This document shows positions 9,630-64,000 of a stretch of 64,000 bases of DNA, piece by piece (position 1 is the stretch's first letter; each line of letters starts with the position of its first letter). A program made the position numbers and the translations under genes. The notes under the pieces were generated by a model. The model did not search any database, was not told the origin of the DNA, and saw only the letters and a list, made by a program, of their open reading frames with translations. The stretch is taken from contig OZ025258.1 of NCBI GenBank assembly GCA_964019135.1, forward strand, positions 33,192,955-33,256,954. The letters are read 5' to 3'. The stretch is from Arenicola marina (lineage: Eukaryota > Annelida > Polychaeta > Arenicolidae).

Positions 9630-12600
9630 ATGATGAGGTACATCTGTATCCTGGCCGCTCTCCTCCACATCACCTATGGCAGTAAGTAATTACATATAAC
9701 ACAGTCTATATCTTTTTTCCATGACATTCCATTTCAAGCGTTGGCGAAAAAAAAGGTTTTGCTTCCAGTAATTTCAGAAATTCTAGATACTTAACTTCCA
9801 GACTTTACGCAGTCACGGATGTGTTACACAGTGTTAGGATGATGACATAATTAGACAATTAACTTTAATGAAAATTAAATCGCGCACATCAGCATAGCTA
9901 ACAGATCTCCACCAAGCTATCCCTGACCTCCTGTCACCCCTCATGTGATGCCAGTTATTCTATGCTGACATATGAAATGTTGAGTAGAAACAGGGTGGTA
10001 AACCAAAATGCTCTTGATACTGACGACATAACTTACATAACTTTGGGCTGCATATCTTACAAATATTAGAAGTATTTACTTGTAATCTAATTGTCAATTG
10101 TCTTGCTTTCTTCAACCTGATTAGACCACTAAAACATTACGAAATAGAAATAATTTATTGGCATTTCCCTGGAACTACCGATACATGTACACAGTTGTGA
10201 AAACAATCACTTCAATAAAATAGATATTAAATAGGAAAAAATATATCACTCTAGCAATATGTAACAAAATTCCTTATTTGGTCTACGACATGTAGATACA
10301 CGCGTGTTGCCATGTAACAAAAACACAGTGTGCTGTGAAATGATGTAAGCACCGTATGCTAACATCATGTAAATAAATGAAATGAAAGAGCATGGTGTTA
10401 CAGACATTTTATGCGTATGGCATAGGACATATAACGTTCTTGATTACCATGCCATCACGATTTGTAAAGCATTGCTAGGCCTACTTGTTTATCTTTTAAA
10501 ATGAGCCGGCATAAGCGCGAACTTAAGGATCTCCTTGATCAAGCATTCGCATTCGTTCACATCATCACCATCTTGAAATATGCCTTTCTAGAGCGATAAA
10601 GGTTGCCGGAAAAGTCTGAGACCTCTATCGCTCTAGAAATTCATATCACAAGATGGTAGTGATGTGAACTAGCATACGCAAACATGCAAGTAGAATAGAA
10701 CAGTTTGTCCCGATGGCCCAAATGGTGGCGGGGTTCGCCAGGTGGCGCTGCACATGAGCATGGCGGTTGGTCGGGAACAGACGTACGCTACAACACTTTT
10801 TTACTGAAATATAACCGAAACAACATGGTATTGACACACTTTCTTGGTGTCAGAAGATATGCAGAATATGTAAGCATTATCATTGCGCGCGTATGCATTG
10901 CAGCAAAAGCCACAGTCGATTCTGGACCCGGGTTTAAAGAAATTAGCATGGATACCGTTGTGCCCCTAGAGAAGCGGACTTGCCTGAGGGTACTTGCGCC
11001 AAGGTATCATGCAGAAATCATGATTTCAAGGTATCCCAGGGTCGCACGAAATATATGCCTCCAACATTATTGGAACCATTCTATTCACAAACATGAATTC
11101 CGAACATTTCAGTATCGCTGGCGGCCTTGGCATAACATTAATATGTTGTCTTCTTCTCACAGGTGGCAGTACGTGCACCGATTCCGCTGGCGGCAACTGC
11201 GTCTGTTCCTGCGATTGCGATCCCAGTGAGTAGTAATCATCATACATCCTACGGGTACATCGTACTTAATACTTTTTACATCAAAAGCCATCGGTTGGCC
11301 GTTATGACAGTCTGTCGTTACAATTCACTGCCCCACTGCCTGATTTGTCTCTCAGCCTATACCTTACCACGTCCTTCATATTCACTGCCTTCGTCCCTTC
11401 AGTCTGTGCCTTACCACGTCCTTAATATTCACTGCCTACGTCCCTTCAGTCTGTGCCTTACCACGTCCTTAATATTCACTGCCTTCGTCCCTTCAGTCTG
11501 TGCCTTACCACGTCCTTAATATTCCCTGCCTTCGTCCCTTCAGTCTGTGCCTTACCACGTCCTTAATATTCACTGCCTTCGTCCCTTCAGTCTGTGCCTT
11601 ACCACGTCCTTAATATTCACTGCCTTCGTCCCTTCAGTCTGTGCCTTACCACGTCCTTAATATTCACTGCCTTCGTCCCTTCAGTCTGTGCCTTACCACG
11701 TCCTTAATAGTAACTGCTTTCGTCCCTTCAGTCTGTGCCTTACCACGTCCTTGTAATATTCACTGCCTTCGTTCCTTCAGTCTGTGCCTTACCACGTCCT
11801 GAATATTCACTGCCTTCGTCCCTTCAGTCTGTGCCTTACCACGTCCTTAATATTCACTGCCTTCGTTCCTTTAGTCTGTGCCTTACCACGTCCTTAATAT
11901 TCACTGCCTTCGTCCCTTCAGTCTGTGCCTTACCACGTCCTTAATAGTAACTGCCTTCGTCCCTTCAGTCTGTGCCTTACCATGTCACTAATGTTCACTG
12001 CCTTCGTTCCTTCAGTCTGTGCCTTACCACGTCCTTAATATTCCCTGCCTTCGTCCCTTCAGTCTGTGCCTTACCACGTCCTTATAATATTCACTGCCTT
12101 CGTCCCTTCAGTCTGTGCGTTACCACGTCCTTAATAGTAACTGCTTTCGTCCCTTCAGTCTGTGCCTTACCACGTCCTTGTAATATTCACTGCCTTCGTT
12201 CCTTCAGTCTGTGCCTTACCACGTCCTGAATATTCACTGCCTTCGTCCCTTCAGTCTGTGCCTTACCACGTCCTTAATATTCACTGCCTTCGTTCCTTTA
12301 GTCTGTGCCTTACCACGTCCTTAATATTCACTGCCTTCGTCCCTTCAGTCTGTGCCTTACCATGTCACTAATGTTCACTGCCTTCGTTCCTTTAGTCTGT
12401 GCCTTACCACGTCCTTAATATTCACTGCCTTCGTCCCTTCAGTCTGTGCCTTACCACGTCCTTAATAGTAACTGCCTTCGTCCCTTCAGTCTGTGCCTTA
12501 CCATGTCACTAATGTTCACTGCCTTCGTTCCTTCAGTCTGTGCCTTACCACGTCCTTAATATTCCCTGCCTTCGTCCCTTCAGTCTGTGCCTTACCACGT

Positions 12601-15059
12601 CCTTATAATATTCACTGCCTTCGTCCCTTCAGTCTGTGCGTTACCACGTCCTTAATAGTAACTGCTTTCGTCCCTTCAGTCTGTGCCTTACCACGTCCTT
12701 GTAATATTCACTGCCTTCGTTCCTTCAGTCTGTGCCTTACCACGTCCTGAATATTCACTGCCTTCGTCCCTTCAGTCTGTGCCTTACCACGTCCTTAATA
12801 TTCACTGCCTTCGTTCCTTTAGTCTGTGCCTTACCACGTCCTTAATATTCACTGCCTTCGTCCCTTCAGTCTGTGCCTTACCATGTCACTAATGTTCACT
12901 GCCTTCGTTCCTTCAGTCTGTGCCTTACCACGTCCTTAATATTCCCTGCCTTCGTCCCTTCAGTCTGTGCCTTACCACGTCCTTATAATATTCACTGCCT
13001 TCGTTCCTTCAGTCTGTGCCTTACCACGTCCTGAATATTCACTGCCTTCGTCCCTTCAGTCTGTGCCTTACCACGTCCTTAATATTCACTGCCTTCGTTC
13101 CTTTAGTCTGTGCCTTACCACGTCATTGATATTCACTGCCTTCGTTCCTTTAGTCTGTGCCTTACCACGTCCCTAATATTCACTGACTTCGTTCCTTTAG
13201 TCTGTGCCTTACCCTGCACGGTTGGCGTTGATGGACCCACTGCGGTGACCACATTTGACGGCAACGGCTACACGATGGACAGCAACAACAAGTTCATCAT
13301 CTCGCGGTTTGCCCAGGATATTAACGACCAGTGCAAGGTATGTACGGCCGCCCAACCGCTTGGGTTCCTCATCGATGTTATGATTGGCAAGCTCTGGCAA
13401 TAGTCAGGCATCAGGCGACGGGTCATCGCTGTTTTGATTGGCAAGCTCTGGCAATAGTCAGGATCAGGCGACGGGTCATCGCTGTTTTGATTGGCAAGCT
13501 CTGGCAATAGTCAGGTGCAGGCGAAGGGTCACCGATGTTATGATTGACAAGCTCTGGCAATAGTCAGACATCAGGCGACGGGTCATCGCTGTTTTGATTG
13601 GCAAGCTCTGGCAATAGTCAGACATCAGGCGACGGGTCATCGCTGTTTTGATTGGCAAGCTCTGGCAATAGTCAGACATCAGGCGACGGGTCATCGCTGT
13701 TTTGATTGGCAAGCTCTGGCAATAGTCAGACATCAGGCGACGGGTCATCGCTGTTTTGATTGGCAAGCTCTGGCAATCGGATTGTTGATGTGCGTATGGC
13801 TCCCTCACCCATCACCACATCAGTGTACAACAGAATGCACGCATATGAGCCGATGCCGACACAGCCTGACGCACCGTAAGCGGCGCTATCCACACTACCA
13901 TTGTCTAGACCTAAACTACATATCTTGAAGTTGTCCTTCGCTTGCTATTTTTAGCCATCTTAGCACACATAATTATTAATTTCTTGCCAATAACTCAGGC
14001 AGGCAGGCAATCAGCTTCTGAATTTGAACACTTGGTTCCTATGACCAATTATTACAATACATTCCGTGAGAAATGCCAGTTTTAAGTATAATATGATACA
14101 AATGGCTTGTCGTACTCAACTCTTTGTGTAGAACGGCTCAAGACGATGGTAGATATTGTATGCGGGACTCAAATGCCGGGGATATGGACAGGCGAAGTCC
14201 ACAAGTGTTGACTTGGAAATAGCGTCCCCATTATAGGCAGGTTACGTGTTCTCTTGAACTATGTCAAAAATTGCTGTGTGTTTGTTTTTTCAGTTCCAAC
14301 TCCGTGCGGATACTGAGGATGGTCCTAATGGCTTACAGCAGGGCTGGGCAGGCGTCGCTTTCGGCATACACGCTAGTAACGCCGAGAAGTTTGATGTTAA
14401 CTATCGTCTGTCTCTGACGCAGAACGTGGTGGACGTCAGAGGTCGGGGCTACGGTGATGTGAGTCACATATGTATTATATGATAGTTGTATCTATCTCTC
14501 TGCTGATAGCGCAAATATATTGCACTGAGCATCATAACATATCGTAATCCTATATCAAGTAATTGCTTCTTTGTCAAAATTTCGTTAATAACTTCCACGT
14601 GATTGCATCACATCAAGCAAGACACATCCCTGATTTATACACACCAGGATTTTATTAAGGCTTTTGATAACATCCCATCCTGCCCAACTGACCAGTAATC
14701 CCCTCCTGTTGTTGTTCCCGTAAAATCAGCCGGTGATCGTCTCCACATCCGGGTGCCATCAATCCGAAACCGGAACTCACCCCTGGACATTCTGCGTGAA
14801 TTTGAGCGCTGAGGGGGTGTTCGTTGTCCGTGGAGAAGTGCCTGCCCTGGGCTGCTGGATAGAGGTCCGCTACGAGGAGGGTGTCGACGGTGCCAACGAC
14901 CAACTGACCCTGAATGTCTCCTCCGGCTACAACGGTCAGTTGAACGGGATGTGCGGCGACCGGGATGGCGATCCCGACAACGACGACCAGTTCTGTCCTC
15001 GCGACAGCGGAAACATCTCAGACGATTGCATCGACGGAGACTCACAGAATAACGGCTAA
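9630..15059 (+). CDS. Secreted single von Willebrand factor type D domain protein
   Basis: Five coding exons: 9630-9681, 11163-11225, 13201-13337, 14294-14458, 14730-15059 (TAA); 747 nt, 248 residues, phases consistent, all introns GT-AG. Exon 1 is a signal peptide (MMRYICILAALLHITYG). Exon 2 is a short cysteine-rich piece containing 'NCVCSCDCDP'. Exons 3-5 form one VWD domain: 'TAVTTFDGNGYTM' at its start, 'FQLRADTEDG' in the middle, and the calcium-site-like 'GMCGDRDGDPDNDD' near the end. No C8, TIL or other mucin/zonadhesin modules follow. The start is fixed by the signal peptide and the TATA box ahead of it. VWD domains are extracellular and often mediate assembly; the role of this small protein is unknown. 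Intron 2 is an acceptor-type junction minisatellite and intron 3 holds another array. Confidence 0.88.
10540..10690. repeat. Foldback repeat in intron 1 of the VWD gene
   Basis: Imperfect inverted repeat. The left arm 'cttgatcaagcattcgc...' to 'ctttctagagcgata' (ending ~10598) pairs with 'tatcgctctagaaatt' onward (10625-10680). Arms are ~50 bp and the loop ~27 bp. It could be a small foldback transposon; no target duplication recognised. Confidence 0.65.
11341..13213 (+). repeat. 47-bp acceptor-junction minisatellite, VWD gene intron 2
   Basis: About 38 copies of a ~47-bp unit (some 49-50) containing 'tcgtcccttcag', then 'tctgtgccttacc', then 'acgtccttaatattcactgc'. The final copy is the real acceptor: 'ttcctttag' ends at 13200 and exon 3 begins 'tctgtgccttacc' at 13201. 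Every unit therefore repeats a pyrimidine tract, an AG and the first 13 bases of the exon. A 521-bp block (11972-12492) is repeated next to itself (from 12493). Confidence 0.95.
13384..13785. repeat. 54-bp minisatellite in VWD gene intron 3
   Basis: About seven copies of a unit containing 'attggcaagctctggcaata', 'gtcagacatcaggcgacggg' and 'tcatcgctgtttt'. It begins some 45 bp after the donor at 13338 and does not carry the junction. Confidence 0.92.
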
Positions 15060-20326: not shown

Positions 20327-20513
20327 TGTTGTGTTACGGAGACGGAGACGAAGTACAGTTCGTGTCGTTTATTAGTTCTCTAAGAGTTGTTCTTTACACG
20401 TTGGTGACCAGGAGACAAGTGACCAACATGAGACTGCTCATTAGCATATGACAAAGACACTTGGTGGCTCCAGCAAGATTAGCACAGTTGGACGTTCAGG
20501 CCTTAATCCAACA
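20327..20513 (-). repeat. 3' LTR of the Ty3/gypsy element
   Basis: Nearly identical to 24673-24871. It is the 3' LTR because the coding strand is minus. Confidence 0.93.
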
Positions 20514-24465: not shown

Positions 24466-24672
24466 GAGCAGGCAGTAAAGGGTTAACAGTACTTAGCTGA
24501 GTGAACAACACTTGCTCTGCTGCGCTGCGCTGCACGTGCTTCTTTTCCCGTGTACACCGGCCCACTTTCTCCTGTCAAGTTGTTGTCATTTAGAGTCGAC
24601 AATAATTCCCTTGATAACGTGTTCAAAGAAGTAGCTGTGCCGCTGTCTACAACGGCACCACCGCTGTCACCA

Positions 24673-38800: not shown

Positions 38801-41800
38801 AGACACTGAGAATGATCTGTGAGATGTGCCCCAGCGAAGCTCTCAACGTGCGAGCCATGTGTGTGAGTATCGTCTCAACGTGCGAGCTATGTGTGTGAGT
38901 ATCGTCTCAACGTGCGAGCTATGTGTGTGAGTATCATCTCAACGTGCGAGCTATGTGTGTGAGTATCGTCTCAACGTGCGAGCTATGTGTGTGAGTATCG
39001 TCTCAACGTGCGAGCTATGTGTGTGAGTATCATCTCAACGTGCGAGCTATGTGTGTGAGTATCGTCTCAACGTGCGAGCTATGTGTGTGAGTATCGTCTC
39101 AACGTGCGAGCTATGTGTGTGAGTATCATCTCAACGTGCGAGCTATGTGTGTGAGTATCATCTCAACGTGCGAGCTATGTGTGTGAGTATCATCTCAACG
39201 TGCGAGCTATGTGTGTGAGTATCATCTCAACGTGCGAGCTATGTGTGTGAGTATCATCTCAACGTGCGGGCTATGTGTGTGAGTATCATCTCAACGTGCG
39301 AGCTATGTGTGTGAGTATCATCTCAACGTGCGGGCTATGTGTGTGAGTATCGTCTCAACGTGCGAGCCATGTGTGTGAGTATCGTCTCAACGTGCGAGCT
39401 ATGTGTGTGAGTATCGTCTCAACGTGCGAGCCATGTGTGTGAGTATCGTCTCAACGTGCGAGCTATGTGTGTGAGTATCGTCTCAACGTGCGAGCCATGT
39501 GTGTGAGTATCGTCTCAACGTGCGAGCTATGTGTGTGAGTATCATCTCAATGTGCGAGCTATGTGTGTGAGTATCATCTCAACGTGCGAGCTATGTGTGT
39601 GAGTATCGGCTCAACGTGCGAGCTATGTGTGTGAGTATCGGCTCAACGTGCGAGCTATGTGTGTGAGTATCGTCTCAACGTGCGAGCTATGTGTGTGAGT
39701 ATCGGCTCAACGTGCGAGCCATGTGTGTGAGTATCGTCTCAACGTGCGAGCTATGTGTGTGAGTATCGTCTCAACGTGCGAGCTATGTGTGTGAGTATCG
39801 GCTCAACGTGCGAGCTATGTGTGTGAGTATCGTCTCAACGTGCGAGCTATGTGTGTGAGTATCGGCTCAACGTGCGAGCCATGTGTGTGAGTATCGTCTC
39901 AACGTGCGAGCTATGTGTGTGAGTATCATCTCAACGTGCGAGCCATGTGTGTGAGTATCGTCTCAACGTGCGAGCTATGTGTGTGAGTATCGGCTCAACG
40001 TGCGAGCCATGTGTGTGAGTATCGTCTCAACGTGCGAGCTATGTGTGTGAGTATCATCTCAACGTGCGAGCCATGTGTGTGAGTATCGTCTCAACGTGCG
40101 AGCTATGTGTGTGAGTATCGTCTCAACGTGCGAGCCATGTGTGTGAGTATCGTCTCAACGTGCGAGCTATGTGTGTGAGTATCAGCTCAACGTGCGAGCT
40201 ATGTGTGTGAGTATCGTCTCAACGTGCGAGCTATGTGTGTGAGTCTCATCTCAACGTGCGAGCTATGTGTGTGAGTATCGTCTCAACGTGCGAGCTATGT
40301 GTGTGAGTATCATCTCAACGTGCGAGCTATGTGTGTGAGTATCGTCTCAACGTGCGAGCTATGTGTGTGAGTATCATCTCAACGTGCGAGCTATGTGTGT
40401 GAGTATTGTCTCATCGTGCGAGCTATGTGCGTGAGTATCGTCTCAACGTGCGAGCTATGTGTGTGAGTCTCATCTCAACGTGCGAGCTATGTGTATGAGT
40501 ATCGTCTCACCGTGCGAGCTATGTGTGTGAGTCTCATCTCAACGTGCGAGCTATGTGTATGAGTATCGTCTCAACGTGCGAGCTATGTGTGTGAGTATCA
40601 GCTCAACGTGCGAGCTATGTGTGTGTGTATCGTCTCAACGTGCGAGCTATGTGCGTGAGTCTCGTCTCAACGTGCGAGCTATGTGTGTGAGTATCATCTC
40701 AACGTTCGAGCTATGTGTGTGTGTATCATCTCAACGTGTGAGCTATGTGTGTGAGTATCATGTCAACGTGCGAGCTATGTGCGTGTGTGTATCATCTCAA
40801 CGTGCGAGCTATGTGTGTGAGTATCATCTCAACGTGCGAGTTATGTGTGTGAGTATTATCTCAACGTGCGAGCTATGTGTGTGAGTATCGTCTCAATGTG
40901 CGAGCTATGTGTGTGAGTATCATCTCAACGTGCGAGCTATGTGTGTGAGTATCATCTCAACGTGCGAGCTATGTGTGAGTATCGTCTCAACGTGCGAGCT
41001 ATGTGTGTGAGTATCATCTCAACGTGCGAGCTATGTGTGTGAGTATCGTCTCAACGTGCGAGCTATGTGTGTGAGTATCATCTCAACGTGCGAGCTATGT
41101 GTGTGAGTATCGTCTCAACGTGCGAGCTATGTGTGTGAGTATCGTCTCAACGTGCGAGCTATGTGTGTGAGTATCATCTCAACGTGCGAGCTATGTGTGT
41201 GAGTATCGTCTCAACGTGCGAGCTATGTGTGTGAGTCTCATCTCAACGTGCGAGCTATGTGTGTGAGTATCGTCTCAACGTGCGAGCTATGTGTGTGAGT
41301 ATCATCTCAACGTGCGCGCTATGTTTGTGAGTATCGTCTCAACGTGCGAGCTATGTGTGTGAGTGTCATCTCAACGTGCGAGCTATGTGTGTGAGTATTG
41401 TCTCATCGTGCGAGCTATGTGCGTGAGTATCGTCTCAACGTGCGAGCTATGTGTGTGAGTCTCATCTCAACGTGCGAGCTATGTGTATGAGTATCGTCTC
41501 ACCGTGCGAGCTATGTGTGTGAGTCTCATCTCAACGTGCGAGCTATGTGTATGAGTATCGTCTCAACGTGCGAGCTATGTGTGTGAGTATCAGCTCAACG
41601 TGCGAGCTGTGTGTGTGTATCGTCTCAACGTGCGAGCTATGTGCGTGAGTCTCGTCTCAACGTGCGAGCTATGTGTGTGAGTATCATCTCAACGTTCGAG
41701 CTATGTGTGTGTGTATCATCTCAACGTGTGAGCTATGTGTGTGAGTATCATGTCAACGTGCGAGCTATGTGCGTGTGTGTATCATCTCAACGTGCGAGCT

Positions 41801-44800
41801 ATGTGTGTGAGTATCATCTCAACGTGCGAGTTATGTGTGTGAGTATTATCTCAACGTGCGAGCTATGTGTGTGAGTATCGTCTCAATGTGCGAGCTATGT
41901 GTGTGAGTATCATCTCAACGTGCGAGCTATGTGTGTGAGTATCATCTCAACGTGCGAGCTGTGTGTGAGTATCGTCTCAACGTGCGAGCTATGTGTGTGA
42001 GTATCATCTCAACGTGCGAGCTATGTGTGTGAGTATCATCTCAACGTGCGAGCTATGTGTGTGAGTATTATCTCAACGTGCGAGCTATGTGTGTGAGCAT
42101 CGTCTCAATGTGCGAGCTATGGGTGTGAGTATCATCTCAGCGTGCGAGCTATGTGTGTGAGTATCATCTCAACGTGCGAGCTATGTGTGTGAGTATCATC
42201 TCAACGTGCGAGCTGTGTGTGAGTATCGTCTCAACGTGCGAGCTATGTGTGTGAGTATCATCTCAACGTGCGAGCTATGTGTGTGAGTATCATCTCAACG
42301 TGCGAGCTATGTGTGTATCATCTCAACGTGCGAGCTATGTGTGTGAGTATCATCTCAACGTGCGAGCTATGTGTGTGAGTAACGTCTCAACGTGCGAGCT
42401 ATGTGCGTGAGTATCATCTCAACGTGCGAGCTATGTGTGTGAGTATCATCTCAACGTTCGAGCTATGTGTGTGTGTGTATCATCTCAACGTGCGAGCTAT
42501 GTGTGTGTGTATCATCTCAACGTGCGAGCTATGTGTGTGAGTATTATCTCAACGTGCGAGCTATGTGTGTGAGTATCGTCTCAATGTGCGAGCTATGTGT
42601 GTGAGTATCATCTCAGCGTGCGAGCTATGTGTGTGAGTATCACCTCAACGTGCGAGCTATGTGTGTGAGTATCATCTAAACGTGCGAGCTATGTGTGTGA
42701 GTATCATCTCAACGTGCGAGCTATGTGTGTGAGTATCATCTCAACGTGCGAGCTATGTGTGTGAGTATCATCTCAACGTGCGAGCTATGTGTGTGAGTCT
42801 CGACTCAACGTGCGAGCTATGTGTGTGAGTATCATCTCAACGTGCGAGCTATGTGTGCGAGTATCATCTCAACGTGCGAGCTATGTGTGTGAGTATTATC
42901 TCAACGTGCGGGCTATGTGTGTGAGTAGCAGCTCAACGTGCGAGCTATGTGTGTGAGTCTCGACTCAACGTGCGAGCTATGTGTGAGTATCGTCTCAACG
43001 TGCGAGCTATGTGTGTGAGTATCATCTCAACGTGCGAGCTATGTGTGTGAGTATCATCTCAACGTGCGAGCTATGTGTGTGAGTATCGTCTCAACGTGCG
43101 AGCTATGTGTGTGTGTATCATCTCAACGTGCGAGCTATGTGTGAGTATCGTCTCAACGTGCGAGCTATGTGTGTGTGTATCATCTCAGCGTGCGAGCTAT
43201 GTGTGTGAGTACCATCTCAACGTGCGAGCTATGTGTGTGAGTATCATCTCAGCGTGCGAGCTATGTGTGTGAGTATCATCTCAACGTGCGAGCTATGTGC
43301 GAAAACGGATCATTTCACCAGGAGTGTTGTGTCATGAATGTGTTTAATTAATTAGTATTTGACATGTTGAATGGAAACTCTTTACGAAACTCTAAATGTT
43401 TCACGTGATCTTCACATTTATCTCCTGATCTCGCCAGGTTTCCCAGTGCAGAATGCCCAGTCTGACAGTGGCCTTGACCTTGCACCACTGCCACGAGAGT
43501 CTGGAGTCGGAATCGATGAGCGACGGCTGCGGTCTCCATGACGACAAGACGGAGGAGGGACTCAGCGACGTGGTGGCCTTCGTCAGCGGACTGCTGCTCG
43601 GCAGCGACCTGGACGTCCGCAACTGGTTCTCGCAGTTCATCAGGATCGGTCAAAAGGTGAGCCGGACTCTCGCGGAATTCTGAAGGAAGACTGCTGCGCG
43701 GGTTGTAGTATACGGGGGTAAAGAATGGATAACGGCGACAATGTAGGGGAAATATTGAGCATTGAATGTAAAATATATCGTCAAGCGGTAAGATTTTGAA
43801 ATAAAATCAAATATAAAGGAATAAATTGGGTCAAGAAACCTCCCGAGACAATAAAAAAAATGATCCTGACCCAAGGGGGAGTTCCCGTCGTTACATAGAC
43901 GCCAATAGGTAATAACTGTTAAGGAGACTGTTAGTAGACATACACGACATTAATGATCACCGCGTTCAAGGGCATAGTATAGAGGCCAGAGAGGCTGGTC
44001 AGCTGGAGTATCTTGGTAACGTTATGTTATTGGTGTGCGCTCTCCAGAGGAAAGACCTGTCGTCGATGCTGCCTCCGCTTCGCCAGGAGCTCCTGGAACA
44101 GCTGATCGACGTGGTGCCGGACCGGATCGGGGAGGTGACCGAGCGCCAGGTCGTCCAGGGCTGCGCCTTCATCCGTCTGTACTGCGCCCTCAAGTGTATC
44201 GCCGCCTTGAGGTGAGTTAGAGGGGAGGGGAGGGCCTTCATCCGCCTGTACTGTGCCCTCAAGTGTATTGCCGCCTTGAGGTGAGTTAGAGGGGAGGGCT
44301 GGGCCTTCATCCGCCTGTACTGCGCCCTCAAGTGTATCGCCGCCTTGAGGTGAGTTAGAGGGGGGGGGCTGGGCCTTCATCCGCCTGTACTGCGCCCTCA
44401 AGTGTATCGCCGCCTTGAGGTGAATTAGAGGGGAGCGCTGCGCCTTCATCCGTCTGTACTGCGCCCTCAAGTGTATCGCCGCCTTGAGGTGAGTTAGAGG
44501 GGAGGGCTGGGCCTTCATCCGCCTGTACTGCGCCCTCAAGTGTATCGCCGCCTTGAGGTGAGTTAGAGGGGAGGGCTGGGCCTTCATCCGCCTGTACTGC
44601 GCCCTCAAGTGTATCGCCGTCTTGAGGTGAGTTAGAGGGGAGGGCTGGGCCTTCATCCGCCTGTACTGCGCCCTCAAGTGTATCGCCGTCTTGAGGTGAG
44701 TTAGAGGGGAGGGCTGGGCCTTCATCCGCCTGTACTGCGCCCTCAAGTGTATCGCCGCCTTGAGGGGAGGGAGAGGGGAGTGCTGGGCCTTCATCCGCCT

Positions 44801-47800
44801 GTACTACGCCCTCAAGTGTATCGCCGCCTTGAAGTGAGTTAGAGGGGAGCGCTGGGCCTTCATCCGCCTGTACTGCGCCCTCAAGTGTATCGCCGCCTTG
44901 AGGTGAGTTAGAGGGGAGGGCTGGGCCTTCATCCGTCTGTACTGCGCCCTCAAGTGTATCGCCGCCTTGAGGTGAGTTAGAGGGGAGGGCTGGGCCTTCA
45001 TCCGCCTGTACTGCGCCCTCAAGTGTATCGCCGCCTTGAGGTGAGTTAGAGGGGAGGGCTGGGCCTTCATCCACCTGTACTGCGCCCTCAAGTGTATCGC
45101 CGCCTTGAGGTGAGTTAGAGGGGAGGGCTGGGCCTTCATCCACCTGTACTGCGCCTTCAAGTGTATCGCCGCCTTGAGGTGAGTTAGAGGGGAGGGCTGG
45201 GCCTTCATCCGCCTGTACTGCGCCCTCAAGTGTATCGCCGCCTTGAGGTGAGTTAGAGGGGAGGGCTGGGCCTTCATCCGTCTGTACTACGCCCTCAAGT
45301 GTAGCGCCGCCTTGAGGTGAGTTAGAGGGGAGGGCTGGGCCTTCATCCGTCTGTACTGCGCCCTCAAGTGTATCGCCGCCTTGAGGTGAGTTAGAGGGGG
45401 GGGGCTGGGCCTTCATCCGTCTGTACTGCGCCCTCAAGTGTATCGCCGCCTTGAGGTGAGTTAGAGGGGAGGGCTGGGCCTTCATCCGTCTGTACTACGC
45501 CCTCAAGTGTATCGCCGCCTTGAGGTGAGTTAGAGGGGAGGGCTGGGCCTTCATCCGTCTGTACTGCGCCCTCAAGTGTATCGCCGCCTTGAGGTGAGTT
45601 AGAGGGGAGGGCTGGGCCTTCATCCGCCTGTACTGCGCCCTCAAGTGTATCGCCGCCTTGAGGTGAGTTAGAGGGGAGGGCTGCGCCTTCATCCGCCTGT
45701 ACTGCGCTCTCAAGTGTATCGCCGCCTTGAGGTGAGTTAGAGGGGAGGGCTGGGCCTTCATCCGCCTGTACTGCGCCCTCAAGTGTATCGCCGCCTTGAG
45801 GGGAGGGAGAGGGGAGGGCTGGGCCTTCATCCGCCTGTACTGCGCCCTCAAGTGTATCGCCGCCTTGAGGTGAGTTAGAGGGGAGGGCTGGGCCTTCATC
45901 CGCCTGTACTGCGCCCTCAAGTGTATCGCCGCCTTGAGGTGAGTTAGAGGGGAGGGCTGGGCCTTCATCCGCCTGTACTACGCCCTCAAGTGTATCGCCG
46001 CCTTGAGGTGAGTTAGAGGGGAGGGCTGGGCCTTCATCCGCCTGTACTGCGCCCTCAAGTGTATCGCCGCCTTGAGGTGAGTTAGAGGGGAGGGCTGGGC
46101 CTTCATCCGCCTGTACTACGCCCTCAAGTGTATCGCCGCCTTGAGGTGAGTTAGAGGGGAGGGCTGGGCCTTCATCCGCCTGTACTGCGCCCTCAAGTGT
46201 ATCGCCGCCTTGAGGTGAGTTAGAGGGGAGGGCTGGGCCTTCATCCGCCTGTACTGCGCCTTCAAGTGTATCGCCGCCTTGAGGTGAGTTAGAGGGGGGG
46301 GGCTGGGCCTTCATCCGCCTGTACTGCGCCTTCAAGTGTATCGCCGCCTTGAGGTGAGTTAGAGGGGAGTGCTGGGCCTTCATCCGCCTGTACTACGCCC
46401 TCAAGTGTATCGCCGCCTTGAAGTGAGTTAGAGGGGAGCGCTGGGCCTTCATCCGCCTGTACTGCGCCCTCAAGTGTATCGCCGCCTTGAGGTGAGTTAG
46501 AGGGGAGGGCTGGGCCTTCATCCGTCTGTACTGCGCCCTCAAGTGTATCGCCGCCTTGAGGTGAGTTAGAGGGGAGGGCTGGGCCTTCATCCGTCTGTAC
46601 TGCGCCCTTAAGTGTATCGCCGCCTTGAGGTGAGTTAGAGGGGAGGGCTGGGCCTTCATCCGCCTGTACTGCGCCCTCAAGTGTATCGCCGCCTTGAGGT
46701 GAGTTAGAGGGGAGGGCTGGGCCTTCATCCGTCTGTACTGCGCCCTCAAGTGTATCGCCGCCTTGAGGTGAGTTAGAGGGGAGGGCTGGGCCTTCATCCG
46801 CCTGTACTGCGCCCTCAAGTGTATCGCCGCCTTGAGGTGAGTTAGAGGGGAGGGCTGGGCCTTCATCCGCCTGTACTGCGCCCTCAAGTGTATCGCCGCC
46901 TTGAGGTGAGTTAGAGGGGAGGGCTGGGCCTTCATCCGTCTGTACTGCGCCCTCAAGTGTATCGCCGCCTTGAGGTGAGTTAGAGGGGAGGGCTGGGCCT
47001 TCATCCGTCTGTACTGCGCCCTCAAGTGTATCGCCGCCTTGAGGTGAGTTAGAGGGGAGGGCTGGGCCTTCATCCGCCTGTACTGCGCCCTCAAGTGTAT
47101 CGCCGCCTTGAGGTGAGTTAGAGGGGAGGGCTGGGCCTTCATCCGTCTGTACTGCGCCCTCAAGTGTATCGCCGCCTTGAGGTGAGTTAGAGGGGAGGGC
47201 TGGGCCTTCATCCGTCTGTACTGCGCCCTCAAGTGTATCGCCGCCTTGAGGTGAGTTAGAGGGGAGGGCTGGGCCTTCATCCACCTGTACTGCGCCCTCA
47301 AGTGTATCGCCGCCTTGAGGTGAGTTAGAGGGGAGGGCTGGGCCTTCATCCGCCTGTACTGCGCCCTCAAGTGTATCGCCGCCTTGAGGTGAGTTAGAGG
47401 GGAGGGCTGGGCCTTCATCCGTCTGTACTGCGCCCTCAAGTGTATCGCCGCCTTGAGGTGAGTTAGAGGGGAGGGCTGGGCCTTCATCCACCTGTACTGC
47501 GCCCTCAAGTGTATCGCCGCCTTGAGGTGAGTTAGAGGGGAGGGAGAGGGGAGGGCTGGGCCTTCATCCGTCTGTACTGCGCCCTTAAGTGTATCGCCGC
47601 CTTGAGGTGAGTTAGAGGGGAGGGCTGGGCCTTCATCCGCCTGTACTACGCTCTCAAGTGTATCGCCTTCTTGAGGGGAGGGAGAGGGGAGGGCTGGGCC
47701 TTCATCCGTCTGTACTGCGCCCTCAAGTGTATCGCCGCCTTGAGGTGAGTTAGAGGGGAGGGCTGGGCCTTCATCCGTCTGTACTGCGCCCTCAAGTGTA

Positions 47801-50800
47801 TCGCCGCCTTGAGGTGAGTTAGAGGGGAGGGCTGGGCCTTCATCCGCCTGTACTGCGCCCTCAAGTGTATCGCCGCCTTGAGGTGAGTTAGAGGGGAGGG
47901 CTGGGCCTTCATCCGTCTGTACTGCGCCCTCAAGTGTATCGCCGCCTTGAGGTGAGTTAGAGGGGAGGGAGAGGGGAGGGCTGGGCCTTCATCCGCCTGT
48001 ACTACGCTCTCAAGTGTATCGCCTTCTTGAGGGGAGGGAGAGGGGAGGGCTGGGCCTTCATCCGTCTGTACTGCGCCCTCAAGTGTATCGCCGCCTTGAG
48101 GTGAGTTAGAGGGGAGGGCTGGGCCTTCATCCGTCTGTACTGCGCCCTCAAGTGTATCGCCGCCTTGAGGTGAGTTAGAGGGGAGGGCTGGGCCTTCATC
48201 CGCCTGTACTGCGCCTTCAAGTGTATCGCCGCCTTGAGGTGAGTTAGAGGGGAGGGCTGGGCCTTCATCCGTCTGTACTGCGCCCTCAAGTGTTTCGCCG
48301 CCTTGAGGTGAGTTAGAGGGGAGGGGAGGGCTGGGCCTTGATCCGCCTGTACTGCGCCCTCAAGTGTATCGCCGCCTTGAGGTGAGTTAGAGGGGAGGGG
48401 AGGGCTGGGCCTTCATCCGCCTGTACTGCGCCCTCAAGTGTATCGCCGCCTTGAGGTGAGTTAGAGGGGAGGGAGAGGGGAGGGCTGGGCCTTCATCCGC
48501 CTGTACTACGCTCTCAAGTGTATCGCCTTCTTGAGGGGAGGGAGAGGGGAGGGCTGGGCCTTCATCCGTCTGTACTGCGCCCTCAAGTGTATCGCCGCCT
48601 TGAGGTGAGTTAGAGGGGAGGGCTGGGCCTTCATCCGTCTGTACTGCGCCCTCAAGTGTATCGCCGCCTTGAGGTGAGTTAGAGGGGAGGGCTGGGCCTT
48701 CATCCGCCTGTACTGCGCCTTCAAGTGTATCGCCGCCTTGAGGTGAGTTAGAGGGGAGGGCTGGGCCTTGATCCGCCTGTACTGCGCATTCAAGTGTATC
48801 GCCGCCTTGAGGTGAGTTAGAGGGGAGGGCTGGGCCTTCATCCGCCTGTACTGCGCATTCAAGTGTATCGCCGCCTTGAGGTGAGTTAGAGGGGAGGGCT
48901 GGGCCTTCATCCGCCTGTACTGCGCCCTCAAGTGTATCGCCGCCTTGAGGTGAGTTAGAGGGGAGGGCTGGGCCTTCATCCGCCTGTACTGCGCATTCAA
49001 GTGTATCGCCGCCTTGAGGTGAGTTAGAGGGGAGGGGAGGGCTGGGCCTTGATCCGCCTGTACTGCGCATTCAAGTGTATCGCCGCCTTGAGGTGAGTTA
49101 GAGGGGAGGGCTGGGCCTTCATCCGTCTGTACTGCGCCCTCAAGTGTATCGCCGCCTTGAGGTGAGTTAGAGGGGAGGGCTGGGCCTTCATCCGTCTGTA
49201 CTGCGCCCTCAAGTGTATTGCCGCCTTGAGGTGAGTTAGAGGGGAGGGCTGGGCCTTCATCCGCCTGTACTGCGCCCTCAAGTGTTTCGCCGCCTTGAGG
49301 TGAGTTAGAGGGGAGGGCTGGGCCTTCATCCGCCTGTACTGCGCCCTCAAGTGTATCGCCGCCTTGAGGTGAGTTAGAGGGGAGGGGAGGGCCTTCATCC
49401 ACCTGTACTGCGCCCTCAAGTGTATCGCCGCCTTGAGGTGAGTTAGAGGGGAGGGCTGGGCCTTCATCCGCCTGTACTGCGCCCTCAATTGTATTGCCGC
49501 CTTGAGGTGAGTTAGAGGGGAGGGCTGGGCCTTCATCCGCCTGTACTGCGCCCTCAAGTGTATCGCCGCCTTGAGGTGAGTTAGAGGGGAGGGCTGGGCC
49601 TTCATCCGCCTGTACTGCGCCCTCAAGTGTATCGCCGCCTTGAGGTGAGTTAGAGGGGAGGGAGAGGGGAGGGCTGGGCCTTCATCCGCCTGTACTGCGC
49701 CCTCAAGTGTTTCGCCGCCTTGAGGTGAGTTAGAGGGGAGGGCTGGGCCTTCATCCGCCTGTACTGCGCCTTCAAGTGTATCGCCGCCTTGAGGTGAGTT
49801 AGAGGGGAGGGGAGGGCCTTCATCCACCTGTACTGCGCCTTCAAGTGTATCGCCGCCTTGAGGTGAGTTAGAGGGGAGGGCTGGGCCTTCATCCACCTGT
49901 ACTGCGCCCTCAAGTGTATCGCCGCCTTGAGGTGAGTTAGAGGGGAGGGCTGGGCCTTCATCCGCCTGTACTGCGCCTTCAAGTGTATCGCCGCCTTGAG
50001 GTGAGTTAGAGGGGAGGGCTGGGCCTTCATCCGCCTGTACTGCGCCTTCAAGTGTATCGCCGCCTTGAGGTGAGTTAGAGGGGAGGGGAGGGCCTTCATC
50101 CACCTGTACTGCGCCTTCAAGTGTTTCGCCGCCTTGAGGTGAGTTAGAGGGGAGGGGAGGGCCTTCATCCACCTGTACTGCGCCTTCAAGTGTTTCGCCG
50201 CCTTGAGGTGAGTTAGAGGGGAGGGCTGGGCCTTCATCCGCCTGTACTGCGCCTTCAAGTGTATCGCCGCCTTGAGGTGAGTTAGAGGGGAGGGGAGGGC
50301 CTTCATCCGCCTGTACTGCGCCCTCAAGTGTTTCGCCGCCTTGAGGTGAGTTAGAGGGGAGCGCTGGGCCTTCATCCGCCTGTACTGCGCCCTCAAGTGT
50401 ATCGCCGCCTTGAGGTGAGTTAGAGGGGAGGGCTGGGCCTTCATCCGTCTGTACTGCGCCCTCAAGTGTATCGCCGCCTTGAGGTGAGTTAGAGGGGAGC
50501 GCTGCGCCTTCATCCGTCTGTACTGTGCCCTCAAGTGTATCGCCGCCTTGAGGTGAGTTAGAGGGGAGGGCTGGGCCTTCATCCGCCTGTACTGCGCCCT
50601 CAAGTGTATCGCCGCCTTGAGGTGAGTTAGAGGGGAGGGCTGGGCCTTCATCCGTCTGTACTGCGCCCTCAAGTGTATCGCCGCCTTGAGGTGAGTTAGA
50701 GGGGAGGGCTGGGCCTTCATCCGCCTGTACTACGCCCTCAAGTGTATCGCCGCCTTGAGGTGAGTTAGAGGGGAGGGCTGGGCCTTCATCCGTCTGTACT

Positions 50801-53800
50801 GCGCCCTCAAGTGTATCGCCGCCTTGAGGTGAGTTAGAGGGGAGGGCTGCGCCTTCATCCGTCTGTACTGCGCCCTCAAGTGTATCGCCGCCTTGAGGGG
50901 AGGGAGAAGGGAGGGCTGGGCCTTCATCCGCCTCTACTGCGCCGTCAAGTGTATCGCCAAATATTGATAGAATGTACATATTTTGGACAGAGTATGATAC
51001 TAGTAAAATTAAAAAATCAAAATGTAAATATAAGTTATTGTAATACGTGCCTTTATTATCGTATCGGTTCCTATATGTGGACATTCTTAACGGATTGTAG
51101 CGTTTGTATGGCTATTGATAAGGAAATAAATGTGTCTTGTGACTAGTGATGCTGATGGTAATGGCATGGTGTGTCTTGTGACTGTAGTGATGCTGATGGT
51201 AATGGCATGCAATATTTGACGTCGCAGTAATTAAGGCTTCCGCCGTAACGACCTTGACCTTTGTGATGTGTTGTAGGTTTAACGAGGAAGAGATTCGGGT
51301 CTTGGTTCGGCTGATCACGTGTCATCCTCAGCCCAGCGCGGCCGGCGTTCGCTTCGTGTGTCTAGGACTGTGTATGGTCCTGGCCTGCCCCTACCTCCTC
51401 GGGTCAGTGGGCTTGGTGTTGCTATTCTCCAGAACTGCCTTCTTTTTAATTCACAAAGAAGTGGAATCTTTGATTGGTTGATAGACTAAATCCTAAATGT
51501 TCATGAGAAGCAACAAATTTACGGCCTTTTTGGGGGACAGCCTCCTTAAACTCATAAGCAAACTAAGCGGCAGACCAACAGGTCGTGGGTTCGCGCCCTG
51601 GCACCTGCACCTGTTCCTCCAAATCTGTTTCGGTTTTCCATAAAGGCTTTTGGCCTAAAACATGGCCACTATCATTTCATTTACTGCGTTGTTATACACA
51701 CATACATAAACCTTACTTATGCATATATGCATTTGGTGCCATCTCCTGGTTCCAGCACCCCAGATCAAGAGAAGATGGCGGTGGACTGGATCAAGTGGCT
51801 GGTCAAGGAGAGCACGCACTTCGAGAGGTAATGGCAGCCACGCGCCGTGTCGTCTGCTCGCGTGTGGCGGGAAACCTGTCGATACTTGGCCAGACTGGCG
51901 CGAGTCCTGGGGAAATAGTTTGGCGTTATTGTTTCAAAGATTTGAGATTAATGTTATTCCCAGGGTAATGACCTAGAGTGTATAGAATTACTGAGTTTTT
52001 CTGCATTACAATCAGAAGCTTTATCTTTCCCTTTACATAGATCAGGTAGCAAGTTTAATAGTGTGTGCAGAATATATCATCATGCGTTGATATTTCATAA
52101 AGACATTGACTAATATGATACCCAGAATGCATTGCATATGCAGAGGCGCCTCTGGAATAATCTTAACTATGAGTTGCGAAGTCGTCCATTGAACGGAACA
52201 TTGCATCGAATTGGAGATATGAATATCGAGCATGGAAATTGGTTCAGATGAATTTCCATTAGAATGTCGGCAGTGTTCATTGGCAATCTCGGATCTCTGT
52301 AAATATTATCTGGCGTACCTATTGGCGAGATAGTGCTCCAGTCATCCGATCTAATGACGTCATCTGGTTGCTAGGGTTACCATGATCAACGCGAAGATGA
52401 CGATAATTTAGCGTATATTTTTTTCCCGGGTTTTGAACATGCACATCCTTATTTACGTTCGGATATTAGTAGTTTCTTGGCAATTGTAACTACTATTTTT
52501 ACCATTCTGCTTGCAGAGTTTGCGGTGCCGGGGCCTCTTTTGGAGAGATGCTCTTGTTGATAGCTATCCATTTCCATAGCAACCAGAATAACGCTATCGC
52601 AGACCTTGTTTCTGCTACGCTCGGCATGAAGGTAACATGGCTTGTTGTGTATTCCCGTAGTGCCTTGAACTTTATACGTGTATGCCAAGACACAAATTAC
52701 GATGGCTTCATTACAATAGAAAAAGGTTGTATTCTGGTACTTTCTTTGTGCAAGTTTCAAAGGAAATATGCTCGATCTTGAAGTGACTTGCAGTGATCAC
52801 AAGTGACTTTGTTTAATTGGTTTAGAAATATGTTTAATGAGATAAAAATACAGCTGTCTGAAGTCGGATGTTGTTTTCAGAGCGCCGTGAAGGCTAACGC
52901 CTTGTCGAAGCTGAAAGCTATATTCACTCAAGAAATATTCACTGAAAAGGTACTGTAATGACATTGTGAAATAATTCATGATAATTAGTAGCTAGTTATT
53001 TTGAAATATCGTTTAAACAAAAGAGGTAGTGAAGGTAGTATTATATGGTCAATCTTTAACTGACTTGTGCAATTAAGCAGTTCTGTCCATGAAAGGAAGT
53101 TCTTGTGCCAGGTGCACATGCTGTGAAATTCTCCTCCAGGTGGTGGCGTCACATGTGGTGAATGTTTCTCGTTTTCTGCCAGGTGGTGGCGTCACATGTG
53201 GTGAATGTTTCTCGTTTTCTGCCAGTTGAGGACGTCACATCCTGTGAATGTTTCTCGTTCTCTGCCAGGTGGTGACGTCACATGTGGTGAATGTTTCTCG
53301 TTTTCTGCCAGTTGAGGACGTCACATCCTGTGAATGTTTCTCGTTCTCTGCCAGGTGGTGACGTCACATCCTGTGAATGTTTCTCGTTCTCTGCCAGGTG
53401 GTGACGTCACATCCTGTGAATGTTTCTCGTTCTCTGCCAGGTGGTGACGTCACATCCTGTGAATGTTTCTCGTTTTCTGCCAGGTGGTGACGTCACATGC
53501 TGTGAATGTTTCTCGTTCTCCTCCAGGTGGTGACGTCACATTGTGTTAATTTTTGTCGTTCTGTGCCAGGTGGTGACGTCACACGCTGTGAAGGTGTCTG
53601 TGACGAGGAGACTGAATGCCAACATACCCGGCTACCTACCGGTCCACTGTATCTACCAGCTGCTCAACAGCCGCGCCTTCTCCAAGCACAAAGTCCCCAT
53701 CAAGGTGAGCTTAACACGTAATATCGTTGAGGTCACTCATTACTATAACGCTCTTGGGCCGTGAGATAAGAGCCGCCTTGGTATGAACACGTGCTTCAAG

Positions 53801-62800: not shown

Positions 62801-63272
62801 ATGAAGTGTTATTGTTAACATTAGCCACGATATACAAATATGTCCGAACCATCCGGTGTTTGTGACTGGACTCCATGTCCTTAGTGGGACCTTTATAGCT
62901 CGTGTCGCTACTGACTGGACAGACCCTCCATTTCTGCCTCCATGAAGCTGTGGATTCATATACATCGTTAGCTTGGGCAACTCGTTGGCGCGGTTTCGCT
63001 CGTCTGTGTATAAAGGTGACTTAAAGCACCAATCCACGTGTCAGTTTCCCGTGGTTTCACTGATACACGATATGCAGCCGGTTTGTATGTTTGGTTTTCA
63101 GTGTTGCCTAGCGACACGCGCCCAGACTTCTTCCTGCCCACGCTTCCCGCGCTCCAGAGGATTTCGCGCGCTTTCCCTCCACTGTCAGACGACATCATCT
63201 CGTTCCTCATGCAGCTCGGGCGCGTGTGTCACTCCCACATCGCCAGTGTCACCAACCGACGCGACATCGGCG
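32857..63272 (+). CDS. INTS2: Integrator complex subunit 2, exons 1-23 (C-terminal end beyond window)
   Basis: Nuclear scaffold subunit of the Integrator complex, which cleaves snRNA and nascent RNA polymerase II transcripts. Exons: 32857-33140, 36004-36142, 36363-36468, 38133-38246, 38732-38862, 43438-43656, 44048-44211, 51277-51402, 51756-51827, 52517-52631, 52881-52949, 53570-53704, 55754-56108, 56821-56947, 57418-57551, 57855-58056, 59456-59584, 59983-60067, 60251-60412, 60997-61104, 61550-61657, 62428-62533, 63102-63272. These total 3361 nt, ~1120 codons, in one consistent frame. Against human INTS2 (recalled, ~1204 aa) matches include 'LPCLVRMSLCAP', 'VNSLVALLSIDFHELEQDA', 'NGERQDEESVGG', 'VSGLLLGSD', 'HSNQNNAIADLV', 'AAQDSAAVQILIE', 'IPSMHICLDFIPEL' and 'LAVNVMATLL'. 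A helical-repeat protein without a catalytic site. Exon 13 has an acidic linker and exon 19 a (GQ)n stretch. Intron 14 is GC-AG; the rest are GT-AG. About 50-80 C-terminal residues are missing. Confidence 0.96.
35067..35402. repeat. Foldback repeat in INTS2 intron 1
   Basis: 'ctagccctgaagaacccagg' at 35067 through 'cagcctgcaaa' (~35129) is matched in reverse by 'tttacaggctg' (35331) through 'ctgggttcttcagggcta' (~35390), over ~63 bp with few differences. A related direct copy of 'cttcaggaccctaa' lies inside at ~35221. It has the form of a foldback or MITE-like element. The rest of intron 1 (33141-36003) holds C/G homopolymer tracts and no exon. Confidence 0.75.
36765..36960 (+). repeat. tRNA-derived SINE in INTS2 intron 3
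   Basis: A-box-like 'agctcagcgcgttagagc', then 'ctggccacctgagagcctaa', B-box 'ggttcgagtcc', then 'ccatgtccttcatcgcaaag'. Same family as 31560-31830. Confidence 0.7.
37400..37600 (+). repeat. Decayed tRNA-derived SINE in INTS2 intron 3
   Basis: A-box-like 'gtggcctagtaggcagcgcg' followed by a diverged body ending 'ctactaaaccaaccaacc'. No clean B box remains. Confidence 0.45.
37685..37890 (+). repeat. Tandem tRNA-like units (2 whole, 1 partial) in INTS2 intron 3
   Basis: The central unit 37740-37812 (73 nt) folds as a tRNA: acceptor stem gtcgctg/gtggcgac, D-arm 'gctcagtggttagagc', A box 'tagctcagtgg', B box 'ggttcgagtcc'. Its anticodon arm is an unusually strong 6-bp stem (gccggt/gccggc) with loop 'gcgccaa', lacking T33. 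A similar but T-arm-damaged unit follows at ~37818-37890 with loop 'gcgcaaa', and a 5'-truncated one precedes. The missing U33 and tandem arrangement argue for tRNA-derived repeats or pseudogenes rather than a working tRNA. Confidence 0.65.
38846..43305 (+). repeat. 32-bp donor-junction minisatellite, INTS2 intron 5
   Basis: About 139 copies of a 32-bp unit, 'ctcaacgtgcgagctatgt' followed by 'gtgtgagtatcgt'. The first copy is the end of exon 5 (ctcaacgtgcgagccatgtg then t) with its donor gtgagt at 38863. Most copies keep the donor gtgagt; a minority read gtgtgtat. Exon-type 'cgagccatg' variants are scattered at 39361-40140. A ~990-bp block (31 units) starting near 40401 recurs near 41393. Confidence 0.97.
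44149..50958 (+). repeat. 69-bp donor-junction minisatellite, INTS2 intron 7
   Basis: About 98 copies of a 69-bp unit. The unit is the last ~54 bases of exon 7 ('gccttcatccgtctgtactg' ... 'tatcgccgccttgag') plus the donor gtgagt and 'tagaggggaggg'. The true exon end is 44211. The 69-bp period is 23 codons, which is why minus-strand frames of up to 686 codons cross it. A few units lack the donor (ggggagggag replaces ggtgagttag). The last partial copy ends at 50958. Confidence 0.98.
51131..51212. repeat. Two-copy tandem repeat, ~41 bp, INTS2 intron 7
   Basis: 'gtgtcttgtgact' and 'agtgatgctgatggtaatgg' occur twice in succession, between the 69-bp array and exon 8. Confidence 0.75.
51556..51680 (+). 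repeat. tRNA-derived SINE fragment in INTS2 intron 8
   Basis: B-box-like 'aggtcgtgggttcgcgccct' followed by 'ccataaaggcttttggccta'. The A-box part is decayed. Confidence 0.45.
53110..53569 (+). repeat. 43-bp acceptor-junction minisatellite, INTS2 intron 11
   Basis: Eleven acceptor sites spaced exactly 43 bp, from 53139 to the real one at 53569, with one partial copy before (~53111). The unit is 'gtggtgacgtcaca', '..ctgtgaatgtttct', 'cgttctctgccag'. Exon 12 starts 'gtggtgacgtcaca' and continues 'cgctgtgaaggtgtct', so ~30 of 43 bases are exon-like and the rest is the pyrimidine tract and AG. Confidence 0.96.
53785..53892. repeat. 25-bp tandem repeat, 4 copies, INTS2 intron 12
   Basis: Unit 'gtgcttcaaggcatgccatc' plus 'tagac', highly uniform. 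Confidence 0.9.
54434..55630. mobile_element. Non-autonomous hAT-type element in INTS2 intron 12
   Basis: 1197 bp flanked by the 8-bp duplication GTATTAAT (54426-54433 and 55631-55638), the size typical of hAT. Ends: 'caggcatggggtgattac' at the left, inverse of 'gattaccccatgtctg' at the right. Both subterminal zones (54450-54570, 55475-55615) carry many 'gtaatcgattacgattac' blocks in both orientations. The interior is non-coding and includes a SINE-like insertion at ~54725-54830 (head 'cttggttgggagagcggcgg'). Confidence 0.88.
56948..56953 (+). promoter_or_regulatory. Non-canonical GC donor of INTS2 intron 14
   Basis: Exon 14 ends 'ttcctcag' at 56947 and the intron begins gcaaga. The phase joins correctly with exon 15 at 57418 (acceptor 'gtcctcag'). 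No GT nearby keeps the frame and the conserved protein sequence. Strong exon-side match (CAG) is usual for GC-AG introns. Confidence 0.85.
57598..57735. repeat. AT-rich ~19-bp tandem repeat, INTS2 intron 15
   Basis: About seven copies of 'tttagtcaatattgaataa' with small changes. Confidence 0.9.
58062..58895. repeat. GC-rich minisatellite, INTS2 intron 16
   Basis: Dense G-runs on the + strand built on 'ggggcctggggcgggg', 'cttgggtggggctggccct' and 'gcggggcttgtgtgg' in nested periods of 12-36 bp. It starts a few bases after the donor at 58057 (aagtacgtgcg) but the units lack a donor. It opens frames in most registers on both strands; none is a gene. Many G4-forming stretches are possible. Confidence 0.93.
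59010..59260 (+). repeat. tRNA-derived SINE in INTS2 intron 16
   Basis: A-box-like 'ggttagcgcac', B-box 'tattcgaatccgggtcc' at ~59118-59134, body 'cctgggagttgtccttttag', tail 'ccagtttagcccttcac...' . A tail-only relative sits at 61755-61820 in intron 21 ('cccagtttagccctatg'). Confidence 0.65.
61916..62299. mobile_element. TTAA-flanked inverted-repeat MITE in INTS2 intron 21
   Basis: 384 bp. The ends 'ttaaagttgcatatcgagct' and, inverted, 'ttaaagttgcatatctagct' continue as 'ctttcccgcc' for ~38 bp with three or so differences. TTAA at both ends suits a piggyBac-type insertion, though the family is not certain. The interior is non-coding. Confidence 0.75.
62534..62556 (+). repeat. (gtca)n microsatellite forming the INTS2 intron 22 donor
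   Basis: Exon 22 ends at 62533 (ggag) and the intron opens 'gtcagtcagtcagtcagtca', so the donor motif gtcagt is itself repeated every 4 bp. Confidence 0.8.
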
Positions 63273-64000
63273 GTAAGTCGTGTGTCACTCCCACATCGCC
63301 AGTGTCACCAACCGACGCGACATCGGTGGTAGGTGTCGTGTGTCACTCCCAGTGTCACCAACCGACGGGACATCGGCGGTAAGTGTCGTGTGTCACTCCC
63401 ACATCGCCAGTGTCACCAACCGACGCGACATTGGCGGTAAGTGTCGTGTGTCACTCCCACATCGCCAGTGTCACCAACCGATGCGACATCGGCGGTAAGT
63501 GTCGTGTGTCACTCCCAGTGTCACCAACCGACGCGACATCGGCGGTAAGTGTCGTGTCACTCCCAGTGTCACCAACCGACGCGACATCGGCGGTAAGTCG
63601 TGTGTCACTCCCACATCGCCAGTGTCACCAACCGACGCGACATCGGCGGTAAGTGTCGTGTGTCACTCCCACATCGCCAGTGTCACCAACCGACGGGACA
63701 TCGGCGGTAAGTTTCGTGTGTCACTCCCACATCGCCAGTGTCACCAACCGACGGGACATCGGCGGTAAGTTTCGTGTGTCACTCCCACATCGCCAGTGTC
63801 ACCAACCGACGGGACATCGGTGGTAAGTGTCGTGTGTCACTCCCACATCGCCAGTGTCACCAACCGATGCGACATCGGCGGTAAGTGTCTTGTGTCACTC
63901 CCAGTGTCACCAACCGACGCGACATCGGCGGTAAGTGTCGTGTGTCACTCCCAGTTTCACTAACCGACGCGACATCGGCGGTAAGTGTCGTGTGTCACTC
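63222..64000 (+). repeat. 58/50-bp donor-junction minisatellite, INTS2 intron 23 (continues past window)
   Basis: About 14 copies up to the window edge. The unit is the end of exon 23 ('cgtgtgtcactcccacatcg', 'ccagtgtcaccaaccgacgc', 'gacatcggcg') plus the donor gtaagt. The true exon end is 63272. Longer units are 58 bp; shorter ones lack ~8 bp inside 'cccacatcgccagtg'. Nearly every copy keeps gtaagt. Confidence 0.96.

Follow-up and report, generated by a model that had tools for sequence, protein, structure and literature searches.

The INTS2 locus

The window analysed here is a stretch of 64,000 nucleotides from the annelid Arenicola marina (C11:33192955-33256954), and the assembly searched with it comprises 867,369,267 bp in 762 contigs. 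The window harbors a gene encoding Integrator complex subunit 2 (INTS2), which continues into the adjoining stretch, and a neighboring gene with a VWD domain (Table 1). The INTS2 model, in which 21 exons (2-18 and 20-23) were spliced together, forms an uninterrupted reading frame of 971 codons, and its introns are all of the GT-AG type except for one GC-AG intron, which seems to be intron 14 (window position 56948). The first 524 residues of the model match residues 2-516 of the PDB chain 7cun_B, 'Integrator complex subunit 2', with an E-value of 3.7e-172; we take this entry to be the human protein. As a Pfam match to INTS2 locates the first exon, the exon numbers 5, 7, 12 and 23 of the original prediction fit, and the assignment of the second gene is supported by a match to PF00094 that scores 29.2 bits, above the cut-off of 22.9, and was obtained with pieces that were joined approximately. 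A search of the assembly for the INTS2 family returned this locus only (19 matches).

Among the best 120 of 902 hits, the closest relatives of the INTS2 protein derive from Paralvinella (61% over 91%), Owenia and nemerteans; none of these 120 bears an amphioxus name. A search with a LINE ORF yielded no close match among its 120 listed hits, the identities being 36 to 55%. In a tree of 39 rows, which includes deuterostome but no cephalochordate rows, the window gene adjoins Paralvinella (SH-aLRT 94) within a set of six that also contains Ridgeia and Capitella (support 99), and Owenia joins at 83. An amphioxus host was thus rejected, since the relatives are annelids and nemerteans and the tree places the host among the annelids.

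Table 1. Exons and junction arrays at the INTS2 locus and junction arrays in other genes. Positions without prefix are those of the window; the prefix L denotes other stretches of the assembly.
Feature	Position	Strand	Unit and copies	Remarks
VWD-gene acceptor array	11362..13213	+	47 bp x39	~34 bp intron (ends in acceptor AG) + ~13 bp exon
VWD-domain exon	13201..13337	+		acceptor inside last array copy
INTS2 exon 1	32914..33147 (C11:33225868-33226101)	+		approximate; Pfam INTS2 match
INTS2 exon 5	38732..38862	+		spliced model and PDB match
INTS2 exon 5 donor array	38841..43299	+	32 bp x140	~22 bp exon + 10 bp intron
INTS2 exon 6	43438..43656	+		spliced model and PDB match
INTS2 exon 7	44048..44211	+		spliced model and PDB match
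INTS2 exon 7 donor array	44157..50958	+	69 bp x98	~55 bp exon + 14 bp intron
INTS2 exon 8	51277..51402	+		spliced model and PDB match
INTS2 exon 11	52881..52949	+		spliced model and PDB match
INTS2 exon 12 acceptor array	53129..53599	+	43 bp x11	~11 bp intron + 30 to 32 bp exon
INTS2 exon 12	53570..53704	+		acceptor inside last copy of 43-bp array
INTS2 exon 19	60251-60412	+		read separately from spliced model
INTS2 exon 23	63102..63272	+		spliced model
INTS2 exon 23 donor array	63223..64000	+	58/50 bp	~49 bp exon + 9 bp intron
INTS2 last exon	L009:341-547 (stretch after window)			read by eye
Gamma-glutamyltranspeptidase (GGT) exon donor array	L029:4269-4913		65 bp x9.9	exon by PF01019, E 1.7e-16
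Predicted exon donor array	L010	minus	61 bp x28	
Myosin donor array	L030:2654-4171		42 bp x35	10 bp exonic
Myosin donor array	L035:3805-4006		81 bp x2.5	28 bp exonic
Myosin donor array	L036	reverse	~36 bp x6	13 bp exonic
Myosin donor array	L036	reverse	32 bp x11.7	15 bp exonic

Splice junctions as tandem units

The original prediction had described five tandem arrays straddling exon-intron junctions in these two genes, and TRF located all of them at the expected places (units of 47, 32, 69, 43 and 58 bp). The repeated unit is indeed the splice junction itself: each of the five units contains exon bases together with a donor or an acceptor, the feature that defines the minisatellites known from amphioxus as mirages (PMC3087553, PMC3902484, as far as the accessible text of these papers goes). 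The arrays at INTS2 exons 5, 7 and 23 are of the donor type, those at INTS2 exon 12 and at the VWD-domain exon of the acceptor type. The four INTS2 arrays occupy 12,510 bp of the gene inside the window, and the one at exon 23, read by eye, ends about 50 bp further on in the adjoining stretch. As had been proposed, the units are unrelated to each other, the longest matches common to the five being 7 bases. A mobile satellite as the source of the 69-bp unit was rejected, because a 40-mer of this unit has exact matches nowhere else in the assembly (54 of 54 at the INTS2 locus); the unit arose locally.

An alternative is an assembly artefact in which one junction was repeated in silico. The copies differ from one another, with 41 distinct variants in 139 copies, 34 in 97 and 14 in 39, and like arrays occur on four contigs (C4, C7, C11 and C20), which makes such an artefact hardly credible.

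Further tandem repeats are found in and around the window. A 54-bp array of 7.6 copies (13369-13777) starts about 31 bp past the donor of the VWD exon and is entirely intronic, and a G-rich 12-bp array of about 63 copies (58067-58894) begins 10 bp past the donor of INTS2 exon 16, which is not included. Downstream of INTS2 lies a 45-bp array of 36 copies (L009:4426-6059). An ORF of 1305 codons on the minus strand (20575-24492), presumably of the Gypsy type, is flanked on both sides by the same 44-bp minisatellite (15566-20327 and 24871-25844), an arrangement suggestive of a retrotransposon insertion into the array. At 37691-37890 there is a 77-bp repeat of 2.6 copies with the motif GGTTCGAGTCC, which we take to be a tRNA-like B-box.

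The presumed spliced copy and the fate of the other copies

Across INTS2 exons 5/6, 7/8 and 11/12 the conserved protein is continuous only via the copy joined to the exon, which is the first copy of donor arrays and the last of acceptor arrays. Judged by this continuity, the exon-touching copy would be the functional junction, in line with the earlier proposal that a working junction is preserved at the array edge. Splicing at the next copy would cause a frameshift in the arrays of exon 5, exon 23, exon 12 and the VWD gene and an immediate stop in the 69-bp array, which is in frame. As the other copies tested, the first few of each array, either shift the frame or add a stop, the protein would be made with the edge copy only.

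The remaining copies are probably intronic decoys, most of which retain GT or AG. The dinucleotide is intact in 288 of 299 full copies with the edge copies counted in (134/139, 91/97, 11/11, 13/13 and 39/39 in the individual arrays), compared with about 279 expected from the mean dinucleotide conservation (a hand sum). Decoys retained as useful, be it as spare splice sites or for the regulation of intron removal, would explain why all of the 11, 13 and 39 counted copies in three arrays are intact. Against such a use, the splice dinucleotide ranks only 14th of 32 and 50th of 69 among the adjacent column pairs of the two largest arrays, a fraction of 0.37 to 0.78 of the column pairs varies no more than it does in all five arrays, and GG replaces the donor GT in 4 of 10 counted copies of the GGT array outside the window; we consider retention for use very unlikely. 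No clear purging or protection of decoy splice sites was detected in the five window arrays, and in the two largest of them the splice columns do not stand out from the rest; the decoys thus seem to be tolerated. A codon-position pattern in the exonic columns of the four INTS2 arrays was not significant, with third positions somewhat more variable (permutation P 0.17).

Minisatellite load and junction arrays in other genes

For the determination of the minisatellite load, twenty 10-kb stretches were taken every 2.1 Mb from the single contig C11, and arrays with units of at least 15 bp and at least three copies were counted. The 49 arrays found cover 70,175 of 200,000 bp (35%). By the same script the window contains 12 arrays of 21.6 kb in total (34%), a count in which merging omits the exon 23 array and the G-rich 12-bp array. 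Coverage per C11 stretch, with all TRF rows counted, ranges from 0 to 10 kb with a median of 2.8 kb, so that a gene with several arrays in its vicinity does not stand out here. Three stretches (L013, L019 and L027) consist entirely of one tandem array each, with units of 39, 23 and 44 bp.

Junction arrays are also present in other genes. Two were found in the C11 sample, one at a GGT exon and one at an exon that remains predicted, as it has no match in Pfam or PDB. A third candidate (L011) scored 13.8, below the threshold of 15 for the edge score used below, had no Pfam match and was not counted. Myosin genes were identified by Pfam PF00063, the DNA around 43 of 77 matches was used, and the exons, derived from HMM and tblastn matches moved to nearby AG or GT, are approximate. 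Four junction arrays were detected there, in three genes. All six arrays outside the window are of the donor type. A 28-bp array of 83 copies (L030:4795-7110), which begins 4 bp inside a myosin-II exon and carries ACAG|GT in nearly every copy, was regarded as borderline because of its 4-bp exon overlap and excluded from the strict count.

No junction arrays were found in the myosin stretches L031 to L034 and L037 to L039. Two of these (L032 and L033) hold a myosin gene that resembles those with mutually exclusive exons, as one part of the motor domain is encoded by each of three sets of four exons. On the reverse strand of L036, at 652-1000, several copies have the appearance of a 12-nt in-frame micro-exon between an acceptor and a donor.

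Preference for junctions

Of the eight INTS2 arrays with at least three copies, four lie across a junction, where 0.78 would be expected (P 0.003), and with all 13 rows of at least two copies the four compare with 1.33 (P 0.03); in this expectation units may start anywhere except wholly inside an exon, and the locus itself was ascertained, having been picked for its striking arrays. For the C11 sample an edge score was used which ranks the five window arrays at 19 to 50 and whose codon table was trained on INTS2. At a score of at least 15, two of 41 scored arrays (of 44) lie at a junction, with 1.01 expected from 1500 random positions. Thresholds of 5 and 10 gave 6 against 2.10 and 3 against 1.31, and thresholds of 20, 25 and 30 gave one array each against 0.87, 0.60 and 0.49. 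Among the 26 arrays of the myosin stretches, 4 span a junction compared with 1.72 to 1.87 expected (P 0.09 to 0.11). Without L036, which represents one whole gene in one stretch and was not chosen blind, long open frames having suggested arrays there, 2 of 17 remain against about 0.88.

Combined, the DNA outside the window yields six junction arrays with 2.74 expected (P 0.053). Inclusion of the borderline 28-bp array raises this to seven (P 0.018), a generous value, as the expectation presupposes an exon overlap of 6 bases or more and this array has 4; exclusion of L036 leaves four against about 1.9 (hand sum, Poisson P about 0.12). A two-fold excess at junctions outside the window is therefore possible. 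The conclusion of the original prediction that five such events by themselves point to a junction-seeking process is not supported, given that the locus was ascertained and that the excess is smaller elsewhere.

Such a process would favor junctions as seeds of duplication, for example through GC-rich exon edges, R-loops at 5' splice sites or AG|GT-like microhomology. The INTS2 counts and the combined count outside the window point in its direction, and array units are slightly rich in strong donor motifs: 4 of 44 units carry a strong 5' splice-site motif compared with 1.1 in matched non-array segments, with P 0.04 at one of five thresholds and 0.08 to 0.38 at the others. Composition alone could also favor exon edges and so produce the excess, as arrays are GC-rich like exons (53.5% GC in arrays against 45.0% in non-array DNA, and 57.2% in INTS2 exons). 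On the other hand, the excess beyond INTS2 is not significant at the strict count and shrinks without L036, the C11 sample taken alone gives 2 of 41 against 1.01, and the five window units share matches of at most 7 bases. Seeding at junctions is thus rather unlikely.

With respect to the junction type, donor arrays outnumber acceptor arrays outside the window by 6 to 0 (two-sided P 0.03), or 4 to 0 without L036, and by 9 to 2 when the window is included (P 0.07). In the approximately annotated myosin genes, arrays sit at 4 of 67 donors and at 0 of 67 acceptors. Donor arrays may thus be commoner, a tentative reading given the small numbers. In splicing, the AG that comes first downstream of the branch point is usually the one chosen. 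An upstream acceptor copy would be caught first by scanning, and so be harmful, and a downstream donor copy would be passed over, which would fit such a bias.

Origin of the arrays

Taken together, the arrays are probably mirage-type minisatellites that arise largely as a by-product of a genome rich in tandem repeats, with tolerance at junctions explaining most of their distribution. The genome would make tandem duplications everywhere, some of which fall across exon-intron junctions. Where the copy continuous with the exon keeps splicing normal, the duplication would be nearly neutral and further copies could pile up inside the intron as decoy junctions, with unequal exchange or slippage expanding and homogenising the array. 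Since duplications lying wholly within exons alter the protein, they would usually not persist, and junction arrays may thus be what becomes visible of a process that is random for the most part. Tolerance of arrays at preserved junctions had been offered in the original prediction as the alternative to a junction-seeking process, and with about 35% of the sampled bases in minisatellites it accounts for most of what is seen. Against it, every set contains more junction arrays than expected, strongly so in the ascertained INTS2, although outside the window the number is near chance. It is conceivable, and in our view improbable, that minisatellites arise or survive preferentially at junctions, and at donors in particular, and that some percent of exons carry a bank of splice sites feeding new exons and introns.

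Comparison with known systems

No report of junction minisatellites in annelids was found in the literature searched, which lacks most subscription journals; what is new is the phylum and the abundance of these arrays. The known range of mirages, a cephalochordate host, is not matched here, as the host is an annelid. Their occurrence in this phylum suggests that such arrays may arise wherever the minisatellite load is high. They offer ample natural material for studying how the spliceosome selects a single donor among a hundred that are nearly identical, why the donor type seems commoner and whether such arrays feed the gain of introns or exons.

Two other systems share single features with the arrays. 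In a potato gene, a new intron is reported to have arisen from a single duplication that crossed the border between intron and exon (PMC4974935). Here, too, duplications crossing such a boundary duplicate splice signals; in contrast to the potato gene, many copies lie within an old intron. In earthworm metallothionein, the minisatellites of intron 1 have units that average 178 and 181 bp, and one clone carries duplications of the fourth exon that are absent from the transcript (PMC12783039). Both are cases of intronic minisatellites in an annelid gene. The earthworm units lie inside the intron and, in the accessible text, are not described as including a splice junction, whereas the units described here include the junction.

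The closest counterparts are the amphioxus mirages, which in the accessible text of the two reports are described for Adh3, the globins BflGb6 and BflGb9, TnC, PGBD5 and other loci (PMC3087553, PMC3902484). Donor and acceptor types both occur there, and the globin paper proposed that mirages feed intron gain (PMC3087553). Boundary copies are described there as escaping homogenisation; in the present arrays the divergence of the edge copy is above average in four of the five in the window, barely so in two of them. As in amphioxus, the units straddle a donor or an acceptor, the copy taken to be functional lies at the exon outside the repeats and many units contain a decoy AG or GT. The coexistence of donor and acceptor arrays, for which novelty had been suggested, is only partly new: both types are known from amphioxus globins, there in different genes as far as described, and here they occur in one gene. 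Compared with the accessible amphioxus descriptions, the present arrays further differ in their annelid host, in copy number, with up to about 140 compared with the 3 and 6 units of the BflGb6 haplotypes, in a length of up to 6.8 kb, in the presence of four arrays in one gene and in the estimation of their frequency in DNA outside the window.
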